A stretch of DNA of 5,540 bases from Nitrospiraceae bacterium (GTDB lineage Bacteria; Nitrospirota; Nitrospiria; Nitrospirales; UBA2166): positions 6,622-12,161 of the forward strand of contig PBSN01000006.1 of NCBI GenBank assembly GCA_002726235.1, written 5' to 3'. Both the position numbers and the translations under genes were made by a program. This document shows positions 1,211 through 5,540 of the stretch, in pieces. The notes beneath the pieces are model-generated. The model ran no database searches. It was not told the origin of the DNA and saw nothing but the letters and a program-made list of their open reading frames with translations. The first letter of the stretch is position 1. Every line of letters begins with the position of its first letter.

Positions 1211-1837
1211 ATGCGCCGGGTAAACCAACATTATCGAAATGGTAAGAGTGGCATGCACCTCTCAGTCCTTGCTGTCATGCTGGGGAGCACGATACTTGTA
1301 CTTGGAGGATGTGTTCCCAAGTATCCAACTCTGAATGAACGCACAGCGTGGCCTGCCATTGGATCCGTTGCGACAGGGAACATGACAGCAGGATATCAGG
1401 AGTTGATACAAGCGCATCGAAATGCGGTAATGGTGACTGGAGCCGCGCCACTGCGCGAGGAGATTGGTGAAACATGTTACGAGGCATTAACATCATTTTA
1501 TCGTTACCCTTGGATTAGAGACATCATGGTGTTACGGAATAGTCCATTACTGGACGCGCAATCTGACCGCTATTGGGCCATGATGATCGAAGAAGTAATC
1601 CACATAAGGACCCATGAATGTGATACATGCGCGTCAGATGTATGGTGGCGAGGGACACCCCCATTGAACATTGCTCATGAATTAAAGCATTCCGAGCAGC
1701 AACGGACGATGGGAGTATCGTTCTGGCCAGTGTATGCTGAAACTCATCTTCCTGAAATGCCTGCCGAAAACTTTCTGGAAGAAGAAGCGCGGGCCTCACA
1801 GGAGGCATTTGACCTACAATTCCCTAGGGCATGCTGA
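1211..1837 (+). CDS. Putative lipoprotein with HExxH zinc-metallopeptidase-like motif, 208 aa
   Basis: The N-terminus has a basic region, a hydrophobic stretch (about 16-31) and a clear lipobox LGGC at 31-34, so Cys34 is the probable lipidated residue. A second ATG at 1253 (Met15) would give a shorter signal peptide lacking Lys/Arg. Neither start has a strong ribosome binding site, so the start is uncertain. I do not recognise the family. The notable element is HELKH at 156-160, followed by Gln163, aromatic residues (FWPVY, 171-175) and the acidic stretch EEEARASQEA at 190-199. This order (HExxH, then Glu about 30 residues later in an EEA helix) resembles the zinc-binding layout of gluzincin peptidases. 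Cys89, Cys137, Cys140 and Cys208 could form periplasmic disulfides. A lipid-anchored peptidase is an inference. The gene converges with the minus-strand lipoprotein gene 150 bp downstream. Confidence 0.85.
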   Translation: MRRVNQHYRNGKSGMHLSVLAVMLGSTILVLGGCVPKYPTLNERTAWPAIGSVATGNMTAGYQELIQAHRNAVMVTGAAPLREEIGETCYEALTSFYRYPWIRDIMVLRNSPLLDAQSDRYWAMMIEEVIHIRTHECDTCASDVWWRGTPPLNIAHELKHSEQQRTMGVSFWPVYAETHLPEMPAENFLEEEARASQEAFDLQFPRAC

Positions 1838-1987: not shown

Positions 1988-2584
1988 CTAGTTCTTGTGG
2001 AGAGTGCCTTCTCCTCTAACGTTACGACAGGTAGTATCTGGGAAAATATTCACCCACGCATAATCAAATGTGATAGACCCCTCGGTCACATCGGCTTCAA
2101 ACTCCCCACTCTCAAACCCTTCAAGAGTATCGCCCTGCAGTGTTGTGGCAGCAACAATAGACGCACCTAGGACATTTCCTACGATACTAAACCCGCGCAA
2201 CGCATACACCACAGTGAGGACAGGGCTTGCTACAATAGTGAGGGTTCCGTTTATGGTATTTGAAGCTGGGGTAATAAGCAGCCGGGTGTGAAAAGAAACG
2301 GTGCCATTGAGGGAAGAATGAGGACATTCTTTCCATGTTTCGGTACTCTCCCCGACATAGTTGCCGATAATCTCTTGGATCGTGAATACGCCAGACTCGG
2401 GATCTGATGAAGCAGACGTTAATTGTTTTCCAGTTTCAGGTGAAGGCCCCCCTGCCGCTCCAAACACAGGTCCACTCACAGGCAACGTGCCAACATCTTG
2501 CTCAACATCCCCGCCACACGATACGGCACCGAGGACAAACACCGCCATGGCAACACTCCTTGTGAGTGATACATATCGAATCAT
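1988..2584 (-). CDS. Small beta-rich lipoprotein of unknown family, 198 aa
   Basis: A signal peptide (residues 1-22) ends in the acceptable lipobox AVSC with Cys23 followed by GG, so the protein is probably an outer-membrane lipoprotein. Residues 24-65 are a Gly/Pro/Ser-rich linker. From about residue 68 the protein is a run of short alternating hydrophobic/polar strands with frequent Gly and Thr (GNYVGESTETW, then NGTVSFHTRLLITP, NGTLTIVAS and later strands). This suggests a beta-sandwich or small beta-barrel. Cys87 and Cys186 sit near the two ends of this domain and may be disulfide-bonded. I cannot assign a family or function. The start is well supported by GGGAGG at 2593-2598, eight bases upstream. 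The gene follows the second Sel1 gene on the same strand after 178 bases, so co-transcription is possible but not shown. Confidence 0.85.
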   Translation of the reverse strand: MIRYVSLTRSVAMAVFVLGAVSCGGDVEQDVGTLPVSGPVFGAAGGPSPETGKQLTSASSDPESGVFTIQEIIGNYVGESTETWKECPHSSLNGTVSFHTRLLITPASNTINGTLTIVASPVLTVVYALRGFSIVGNVLGASIVAATTLQGDTLEGFESGEFEADVTEGSITFDYAWVNIFPDTTCRNVRGEGTLHKN

Positions 2585-2762: not shown

Positions 2763-3371
2763 CTAGCGATTAGGTACTAGGCCGGTGGTCGGCCTCCACT
2801 CCCTGGCCAGCCTTTCTGCTTCAGCGAGCCCAGGTCGTGACAGCTCTTGTGCAACATGCTCACGGGCATTGATTGCGGCGTCTTTGACTGCTTCGCTAAT
2901 CGCAGTAGCCGCAGCAATATTCAACCACTTGTGCGCCTGCATATCATCGTGATGCACACCCCGTCCATTGGCATACATCAGGCCAAGATTGTATTGGGCT
3001 ATCGTAAAACCAGCCTCCGCGGATTGCCGATACCAGCGTACTGCCTGCACAAAGTTTTGTGGCACACCGCGCCCCTCATCGTACATCACACCAAGATTGT
3101 TTTGGGCATCCGCATTACCATCCTCCGCGGCTTTTCCCCACCAACGCACGGCTTCCGCATCGTCTTGCGGCACCCCTTTCCCCTCGGAGTACATCACACC
3201 GAGCTTTGATTGAGCACCCACATTACCCGCCTCCGCAGCTTTCATATACTTCTCGAAGGCCGTCACATAGTCCTTCTGGTTCAACGCGTTATTTCCATCT
3301 TCAAAATCTCCCGCCACCACAACTCCAGCCACGCCGAACAGCAACACTAGTACCAACAATACTCGCTTCAT
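2763..3371 (-). CDS. Secreted Sel1-repeat (SLR/TPR-like) protein, 202 aa
   Basis: Residues 1-20 form a typical signal peptide (MKRVLLVLVLLFGVAGVVVA), probably cleaved after Ala20. There is no lipobox cysteine, so the protein is predicted soluble in the periplasm or secreted. The Sel1 repeats are a partial unit at about 35-49 and three full 36-residue units at about 50-85, 86-121 and 122-157, with the motifs LGVMYSEGKGVPQD, LGVMYDEGRGVPQN and LGLMYANGRGV. A charged helical tail follows (AEAERLAREW). From residue 21 to about 196 it aligns without gaps to the Sel1 lipoprotein at 105-695, with about half the residues identical by eye. I chose the ATG at 3371 over the in-frame GTG at 3374, because GGAGG (3376-3380) lies four bases before the ATG but only one base before the GTG. 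The likely role is a protein-binding scaffold; the partner is unknown. Confidence 0.92.
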   Translation of the reverse strand: MKRVLLVLVLLFGVAGVVVAGDFEDGNNALNQKDYVTAFEKYMKAAEAGNVGAQSKLGVMYSEGKGVPQDDAEAVRWWGKAAEDGNADAQNNLGVMYDEGRGVPQNFVQAVRWYRQSAEAGFTIAQYNLGLMYANGRGVHHDDMQAHKWLNIAAATAISEAVKDAAINAREHVAQELSRPGLAEAERLAREWRPTTGLVPNR

Positions 3372-3478
3372 CACACCTCCAATTGAGGGTTGATAGGTTG
3401 TACCTGGATTTTGGATTCGTTCAGTGCCATGGAATAGCGATATGAGATGGAGCCGTGGTCCTCAATTGCTGGTAGCAC
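3371..3478 (-). other. Possible short leader ORF overlapping the second Sel1 start
   Basis: A GTG at 3478 opens a 35-codon frame whose TGA (3373-3371) shares one base with the ATG of the Sel1 gene, the usual geometry of translational coupling. It contains the conserved block that reads MALNES, and its last codons contain the Sel1 ribosome binding site. No good ribosome binding site precedes the GTG or the internal ATG at 3430. In the first Sel1 gene the same frame stops after MALDEA, 38 bases before the start codon. It may be a leader peptide or a remnant of a duplicated upstream gene. Confidence 0.25.
3413..3430 (-). promoter_or_regulatory. 18-bp block conserved upstream of both Sel1 genes (copy B)
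   Basis: The minus-strand reading ATGGCACTGAACGAATCC matches copy A (737-754) at 16 of 18 positions and has the same 59-base offset to the Sel1 start codon. Here it lies inside the possible leader ORF. Confidence 0.4.
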
Positions 3479-3695: not shown

Positions 3696-4136
3696 ATGAA
3701 TAGATACCTTGGAGTAGCCTGCATGATTACGTTTGCAACGCTGATGCTTCACATCGGATGCACATCCGAATCCCCTTCGCCAGGAGAGGTCGCATCCCCA
3801 GAAGGAGAGGTCGCATCCCCAGAAGGAGAGGTCGCATCCCCAAGCGGTGATCCTCAAGCACTCAACGCGCCAGCCACTTCTCCAGGCCAGCCGGAAAATG
3901 CCCTAGGCATTGATCATTTCAATCAAAAACATTGGGATATTGCCGAAGGACACTTTAGCAAAGCGATTGAAGCTGATCCCAACCTTGCCGAAGCCCATTA
4001 CAATCTGGCTGTTTCTCTCGATAAGATGGGAAATCATGGGGCGGCAACCACATCCTTTCATAAGGCGGCCGAGTTGGGCCCCGACAACAGCGCGATCACC
4101 GGATCAGCGATCTTAAAACAGCATGTTGGGAAATAG
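3696..4136 (+). CDS. TPR-repeat putative lipoprotein, 146 aa
   Basis: The N-terminus MNRYLGVACMITFATLMLHIGC is a signal peptide with Cys22 as the probable lipidation site, although His at -3 is atypical. Residues 23-68 form a Pro/Ser/Glu-rich linker with three tandem EVASP units (two full EVASPEG repeats plus EVASPSG). Residues about 69-102 and 103-136 are two tetratricopeptide repeats (NALGIDHFNQKHWDIAEGHF, then AHYNLAVSLDKMGNHGAATTSF). TPR pairs bind peptides or partner proteins. An envelope-anchored adaptor on a flexible tether is a reasonable inference, with the partner unknown. A strong ribosome binding site, GGAGGG at 3685-3690, decides the start. The stop codon is six bases from that of the converging metalloprotease gene, leaving no room for a separate terminator. 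Confidence 0.9.
   Translation: MNRYLGVACMITFATLMLHIGCTSESPSPGEVASPEGEVASPEGEVASPSGDPQALNAPATSPGQPENALGIDHFNQKHWDIAEGHFSKAIEADPNLAEAHYNLAVSLDKMGNHGAATTSFHKAAELGPDNSAITGSAILKQHVGK
3783..3842 (+). repeat. 21-bp in-frame tandem repeat, about 2.9 copies
   Basis: A 21-bp unit starting GGAGAGGTCGCATCCCC is repeated at 3783-3803 and 3804-3824, with an 18-bp third copy at 3825-3842. The copies are identical base for base. The unit encodes the 7-residue EVASPEG segment in the linker between the lipid anchor and the TPR domain. Because 21 is a multiple of three, a copy-number change would alter linker length without shifting the frame. Confidence 0.9.
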
Positions 4137-4142
4137 GAAGAC

Positions 4143-5540
4143 CTAGAAACGATCGGGTTCTATGCAGAAGGAGTCCAAGGGCTTCCCATACCCGCTAGAG
4201 TTCTGACACCGACCACTGGGAGCGGCTATGGGTAACGGCACAATACCAAGCCTAGTGGCTAGTTGTTGTGGTTGTATGCCTTTCAAGGTGGTCGAGACGA
4301 TCGCAAGGGTATAGGTGCCCGTGGACGTTCTCGGCACAATCGTAACGTCGATGAGACGGGCACTGGGAAATGTGAACGTGCATGTCTCAGGTACCACATC
4401 AGTTACACATGCCCCTAGCCGCGTGCCCGTGATTCCATCAGACACGAGAAGGTCAAAATTGGTGGCGGCGACATGGCTGAGCGTCAGCTCGAGAGCCTGT
4501 CCGCCCTTGAGTTTCAGACGGTACACATCCTGATCGCCTGCGGCATTCACAGCGCCTCTGATGCGAATACGGGCATTCGGAAGAATGCCACCCGCGTTGA
4601 TCGGTCCGTCCTGATCGTGTGCGACAAGTAACGTATCCTTGAGGCTCTCACGCTGCGGAATCTGTTCGACAATTGTGTTATTGCGTTCATCCGTTTCCGC
4701 GACAACATTTTCGTCGTCAATGGACACAATGACGAACAATCCACCCAACGCTTGAAGGTCTTTCAGTTTAAATTTTACGGCCGTATTCGTCGTGATGGCC
4801 TCGTTAATGCACCGTTCCGTCATGAATTGATCGGTCGGATCCAATGACGCATCACGTGACAGCCACACCGTGCCCAGGATACACAGATCCGGCAATGGAG
4901 CGCCCACCTTCGTGATGGTCAGCTTGAGGACAAGCGCCTCCCCTGCTGTTTTGATCTTATGCTTGAATTTCGTGAGCGTCCCGCTGAGATCAAGGGAACG
5001 AGCATTGGGGAGAGGAGCTGGGACGGTTGTCCCTACCGTTGGAGTTCCTGTCGGATCAAAATTGACCGCGTGCGCCCCGGCAATATCATCCGGCTGAATC
5101 GTATGCAAAGAAGTCGATTCAGTAGCACTCATAATGCTCACAACAGTTTGTCCATGCTCGTCAGGATGACCAAGTCCCAGGGCATGACCAAGTTCATGTA
5201 TTGCAACGCGCAGGAAATCATGTAATTTGCTGGTACTATCGCAACATCCTGGTACTCCAGTATCCGCTTCAAGAAGCGGCCCAGGATACGCATTCCACGG
5301 CACGGTGTCGTTGAACAGCATGTCAGTCTCATAGTCACTGATCACGATCGACCCATCCGACTGTGCCCATTCAAGCCACTTGTCTAAGGTGAGACCAACC
5401 GTATCCCCCCAGGCAAGGCCGCACTCCGTCGAGGCAAATGCAACGGTATTGATCCCATCTCTACCAGCACACGGATCAGCATTCAGAGGGGAGACTAAGA
5501 AACTAAAAAATTCATGGTCCGGACGACTGCCCACCCCAAC
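4143..5540 (-). CDS. Secreted metzincin-type zinc metalloprotease with CARDB-like and PPC-like domains (N-terminus beyond window)
   Basis: The frame stays open to the window edge, so the start and signal peptide are missing. Residues here are counted from a GTG at 5534 that is probably not the start. The catalytic part contains DGINTVAF (26-33) and the zinc motif HELGHALGLGH (113-123: His113, His117, His123; catalytic Glu114). A likely Met-turn SIMSA follows (Met135). This is the metzincin/matrixin (M10-like) signature. Residues about 176-290 resemble a CARDB module, ending in the typical DENVVAETDERNNTIVEQI. Residues about 318-413 match a bacterial pre-peptidase C-terminal (PPC) domain (GDQDVYRLKLKGGQALELTL, then NFDLLVSDG). 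A tail of about 50 residues has Cys443 and Cys457. Ten cysteines suggest disulfides and extracellular action. The substrate is unknown, and PPC domains are often removed after export. Confidence 0.9.
   Translation of the reverse strand, partial: VGVGSRPDHEFFSFLVSPLNADPCAGRDGINTVAFASTECGLAWGDTVGLTLDKWLEWAQSDGSIVISDYETDMLFNDTVPWNAYPGPLLEADTGVPGCCDSTSKLHDFLRVAIHELGHALGLGHPDEHGQTVVSIMSATESTSLHTIQPDDIAGAHAVNFDPTGTPTVGTTVPAPLPNARSLDLSGTLTKFKHKIKTAGEALVLKLTITKVGAPLPDLCILGTVWLSRDASLDPTDQFMTERCINEAITTNTAVKFKLKDLQALGGLFVIVSIDDENVVAETDERNNTIVEQIPQRESLKDTLLVAHDQDGPINAGGILPNARIRIRGAVNAAGDQDVYRLKLKGGQALELTLSHVAATNFDLLVSDGITGTRLGACVTDVVPETCTFTFPSARLIDVTIVPRTSTGTYTLAIVSTTLKGIQPQQLATRLGIVPLPIAAPSGRCQNSSGYGKPLDSFCIEPDRF

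Follow-up and report, generated by a model that had tools for sequence, protein, structure and literature searches.

The 208-residue protein encoded at positions 1211-1837 of the window, the whole stretch of 5,540 nucleotides that was analysed, is probably an envelope-tethered mini-gluzincin with a zinc-dependent peptidase role. The translation contains HELKH at residues 156-160, Gln163, FWPVY at 171-175, and EEEARASQEA at 190-199, all at the positions named in a sequence-only reading of this DNA. The features of the gene and its product are the following.

860-1978, no strand assigned: segment of ~1.12 kb that carries the gene of the 208-residue protein and is absent from the syntenic contig G003:C61 of the same genus
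1211-1837, plus strand: open reading frame of the 208-residue predicted lipoprotein, from translation, with an alternative start, Met15, at 1253
1211-1312, plus strand: signal peptide with the lipobox LGGC at its end, from the sequence; lipidation is predicted at Cys34 (1310-1312), and the +2 residue is Val
1430-1834, plus strand: predicted zincin domain, residues 74-208, in an AlphaFold2 model (pLDDT 77.6, pTM 0.74)
1676-1690, plus strand: HELKH, residues 156-160, with the predicted zinc ligands His156 and His160 and the predicted general base Glu157
1697-1735, plus strand: Gln163, Gly168, Phe171, and Tyr175, downstream family positions that are themselves within the search pattern
1769-1792, plus strand: N-F-L-E-E-E-A-R, residues 187-194, which matches the family motif N-x-[FL]-E-x-[ED]-A-R and lies outside the first search pattern
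1778-1780, plus strand: Glu190, predicted third zinc ligand
1778-1789, plus strand: EEEA, residues 190-193, from translation

The signal peptide, the lipobox LGGC, and Cys34 together are those expected of a bacterial lipoprotein, and the mature chain would start at Cys34. The lipid anchoring claimed in the sequence-only reading is a prediction from the lipobox. Cys89, Cys137, Cys140, and Cys208 are the other cysteines of the mature chain, and could form disulfides. No other domains were found in this stand-alone protein by Pfam search or in its sequence.

An orphan protein with relatives among small HExxHxxQ...ExEA proteins

The 208-residue protein is an orphan within the collections searched. 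It has no meaningful match in Pfam, NCBIfam, PHROGs, or PADLOC, or among PDB sequences. Searches of 295 genomes from the phylum and of viral contigs, GTDB contigs, phages, and plasmids yielded no homologues, and among 235 genomes of its order it is a singleton. The eCIS_core/DUF4157 model PF13699 does not match the protein at E <= 10, short of the Pfam gathering cut-off, and has no match in the protein's own genome. The weak matches L002 and L003 were read as noise, as was a HELKH lookalike in another genome (L024/L063 in G039).

A DNA pattern derived from the protein's own HExxHxxQ-x4-G-x2-[FL]-x3-Y, in which the choice of Q, G, F, and Y was guided in part by a family of this kind, was scanned against viral contigs. 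It matches 49 of them, with the motif inside an open frame in 48, and occurs once in the window and never in 200 shuffles. A probe sequence for such a family retrieved a real protein from a Polaromonas plasmid. The distal motif [FLYW]E.[EDQW]A, which is absent from the pattern, is carried by 27 of the 45 distinct proteins. In six of these (L069, L072, L092, L096, L110, and L114) it is located at exactly the offset seen in the 208-residue protein, and the six align with the protein gap-free from His156 to Ala193. The other pattern matches include different subfamilies lacking the distal motif (for example, L070, L078, and L102); therefore, the pattern reaches beyond a single family.

The small viral and plasmid proteins (L066-L114, L287, and WP_041377785) have in common with the 208-residue protein the motif HE[hydrophobic]xHxxQ-x4-G-x2-[FL]-x3-Y, the distal N-x-[FL]-E-x-[ED]-A-R, and a strand-like segment just ahead of HExxH. 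Some of them match phrog_37302, phrog_19616, or phrog_15610, annotated 'protease', whereas the 208-residue protein has no match to these PHROGs and contains extra N-terminal sequence. Unlike the 208-residue protein, the 23 small proteins inspected all lack a lipobox, in place of which about 10 of them have a hydrophobic segment at the N terminus.

Profile A1 was built from 21 proteins with the distal motif, excluding the 208-residue protein, which is its only match in its own genome (E 2.2e-7). Nearly all A1 matches that were read in related genomes carry HExxHxxQ, and many are DUF4157-like. The alignment of the protein with the family by hhalign has a probability of 94.3% (E 9.5e-8), and pairs Glu190 with a conserved Glu. 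HELKH is invariant in the family alignments, the members of which had been selected for it by a pattern that already included the HExxH anchors. The family profile has no good relative among PDB sequences, the best being BepA at E 1.

Scanning for HExxHxxQ-x26-ExEA was dominated by another phage family, in which the H, E, H, Q, and E positions are preserved and G168, F171, and Y175 are not. A closer kinship to small proteins of the same phylum (L117, L118, and L120) was rejected: their profile gives the 208-residue protein 2.8 bits, and 120 of 1832 shuffles score as high; therefore, the kinship is at superfamily level. In two other matches of the family profile, L119 (G208) and L123 (G018), HExxHxxQ domains form the C-terminal ends of proteins that contain Rhs-repeat-like sequence, which suggests that these domains are used as tips of polymorphic toxins.

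The proposal of a new or poorly described family was half right on novelty. No curated family recognizes the 208-residue protein; however, it does not found a family of its own and instead joins a widespread superfamily of small HExxHxxQ...ExEA proteins, near eCIS_core/DUF4157, that already exists and is largely unnamed.

Predicted fold and zinc ligands

Submitted to AlphaFold2 as a single sequence, the 208-residue protein yields an uninformative model (pLDDT 34). The structure prediction that the sequence-only reading had called for, when run on residues 74-208 with 25 family sequences, returns a zincin-like fold (pLDDT 77.6, pTM 0.74), and this model is driven by the same family alignment. 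It contains strands at residues 106-109, 122-126, and 129-133, a helix bearing HExxH at 151-179, a glutamate helix at 188-203, and further helices. All 50 rows listed by the VIA structural search are zincin-type HExxH folds with Z-scores mostly of 4-6. The top row is the metallopeptidase domain of VgrG2b (6h56; Z 8.3, 108 residues, 2.7 A), and values of around 8 or below are common according to the tool's own note. Foldseek matches of the model are weak, with E 0.18 in PDB and 2.8e-3 in BFVD. The gluzincin layout that had been read from the sequence is consistent with this fold and with the A1 and hhalign scores, and it stands as a prediction.

Zinc is predicted to be coordinated by His156, His160, and Glu190, with Glu157 as the base. 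Glutamates 190, 191, and 192 had all been put forward for the third ligand, and family conservation favors Glu190. This residue aligns to the conserved family Glu and begins the predicted helix 188-203. The first Glu of ExEA, in the column of Glu190, is kept in at least 90% of A1, a partly circular value because the source proteins of A1 had been chosen for the motif. Position 191 is not conserved, and position 192 is less constant in the family (E, D, Q, W, or A). Independent hints come from L085 (YERAAR) and L098 (LERRA), chosen without regard to ExEA, in which the first Glu is retained and the second is not, and from L079 and L112, in which the second position is Trp. Glu190, the best family fit of the three candidates, is therefore the predicted ligand.

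Comparison with characterized zincins

VgrG2b resembles the 208-residue protein in its HExxH motif and in a Glu at the start of a helix. It acts in the periplasm, has as ligands H935, H939, and, at the top of a helix, E983, and loses its periplasmic toxicity in HExxH mutants (PMC6899460). However, VgrG2b is fused to a T6SS spike and enters competitors by delivery, whereas the 208-residue protein, 11% identical to it, stands alone and is predicted to be a lipoprotein of the cell that makes it; no fusion to a VgrG or T6SS delivery module was found in its sequence or by Pfam search. The archaeal minigluzincins abylysin (4jiu), jannalysin (4jix), and selecase (4qhf) consist of a single small zincin domain of about 100 residues, as predicted for the 208-residue protein, and have VIA Z-scores of 5.4, 4.3, and 5.2, the abylysin match to the AlphaFold2 model spanning 79 residues. 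They have no sequence match to the 208-residue protein and are not known to be lipid-anchored. The eCIS_core/DUF4157 domain is similar in its HEL-x-H-x-x-QQ, and several members of the small family match PF13699 weakly.

DUF4157 has been proposed to act as an effector chaperone in contractile-injection effectors, and the growth inhibition caused by one DUF4157 effector does not depend on its metalloprotease motif (PMC11297309). By analogy, the 208-residue protein could keep the zincin fold and the metal site and serve as a non-proteolytic module with a binding, chaperone-like, or structural function. Even for VgrG2b, direct substrate cleavage has not been identified (PMC6899460), which agrees with such a role; however, the loss of VgrG2b toxicity in the HExxH mutants argues against it. 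Furthermore, H156, E157, H160, and E190 are all intact in the 208-residue protein, whereas a purely structural role would not need the catalytic Glu. We consider a non-proteolytic module unlikely, and a peptidase remains the preferred reading.

The motif compared with chance

At the composition of the 208-residue protein, HExxH is expected 0.026 times per protein, and when the mature chain is shuffled, 1.8% of the shuffles contain it. Therefore, the surrounding sequence decides, as the sequence-only reading had cautioned in pointing out that HExxH alone is common by chance. HExxH combined with the downstream Gln and the distal E..A/ExEA occurs in 0.03% of the shuffles, this longer motif having been defined post hoc with the protein already seen. 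Against an HMM of 25 family proteins, the 208-residue protein scores 35.3 bits, a value reached by none of 2000 shuffles in which eight anchor residues were kept in place (mean 18.4, sd 4.3). With the anchors masked, the score falls to 1.6 bits; therefore, the motif holds most of the profile signal.

The HELKH motif has very probably not arisen by chance. A fortuitous HExxH in a fast-evolving orphan lipoprotein, with no metal function, would fit a singleton of its order that belongs to no curated family, the failed single-sequence fold prediction, and the low score after masking. However, it would leave the distal motif, which was not searched for, at the right spacing by accident, and it is at odds with the anchor-keeping shuffles and with the protein being the sole match of an independent profile in its genome; it is improbable.

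Gene and genomic setting

In contig G003:C61, the genes flanking the segment 860-1978 are syntenic, and 8 bp separate the flanking alignments. No direct repeats were found at the ends of the segment. A gain here and a loss in G003:C61 fit equally well. In codon analysis, the frame of the 208-residue protein is the best-scoring of six, the codon evidence being weak overall. Inspection of the start contexts found no clear Shine-Dalgarno sequence at Met1, and a promoter-like site at 1086-1114 has a chance-level score. A non-working open reading frame, or a decaying remnant on an accessory segment, would account for the weak codon bias, the start context, and the absence of the segment from the relative, but is very improbable given the best-scoring frame, intact with signal peptide, lipobox, and complete motif, and, albeit at chance level, the promoter-like site.

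The neighboring genes have features of their own. The gene at 1988-2584 (minus strand) encodes an unrecognised lipoprotein-like protein with the C terminus HKN, and its G003 version is 11 codons longer, across the segment junction. A second, ordinary metalloprotease, a matrixin (PF00413, E 3.9e-8) with the motif HELGHALGLGH, is encoded at 4143-5540 (minus strand); it has weak CARDB and PPC matches, and its DNA is about 86% identical in G003:C61. A perfect tandem repeat of 21 bp x 2.9 is located at 3782-3842 within the gene of a TPR lipoprotein, and the repeated segment is absent from the G003 counterpart protein. The 35-bp block 796-830 occurs again at G000:C1:24742-24776 with 89% identity and, more weakly, in G003. 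Two Sel1-repeat proteins, encoded at 105-695 and 2763-3374 (minus strand), have many partial paralogues in the genome.

Proposed role and implications

As an envelope-tethered mini-gluzincin, the 208-residue protein would undergo export and lipid modification at Cys34, and would be anchored in the cell envelope, with the outer membrane as its probable site. Residues ~74-205 would fold as a minimal gluzincin domain, in which zinc would be bound by two residues of a single long helix, His156 and His160, and by Glu190 at the start of the next helix. Glu157 would activate water for the cleavage of peptide bonds, and Q163, G168, F171, and Y175 may shape the helix and the cleft. The likeliest substrates would be peptides or proteins of the cell's own envelope, with the enzyme serving in turnover, quality control, or processing. 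More speculatively, and with little probability, the protein may represent a lipid-anchored branch of viral-type mini-gluzincins that was acquired with a small accessory segment and turned to use as a protease of the envelope, perhaps under redox control by the CxxC of Cys137 and Cys140.

No curated Pfam model was found for the small HExxHxxQ...ExEA group, nor were assayed members outside the more distant VgrG2b-like effectors. For the 208-residue protein, one candidate third ligand, Glu190, can now be named. The group, small, largely unnamed, and represented here mostly by viral contigs, also takes in a predicted lipoprotein of a cell, one that lies outside the curated libraries.
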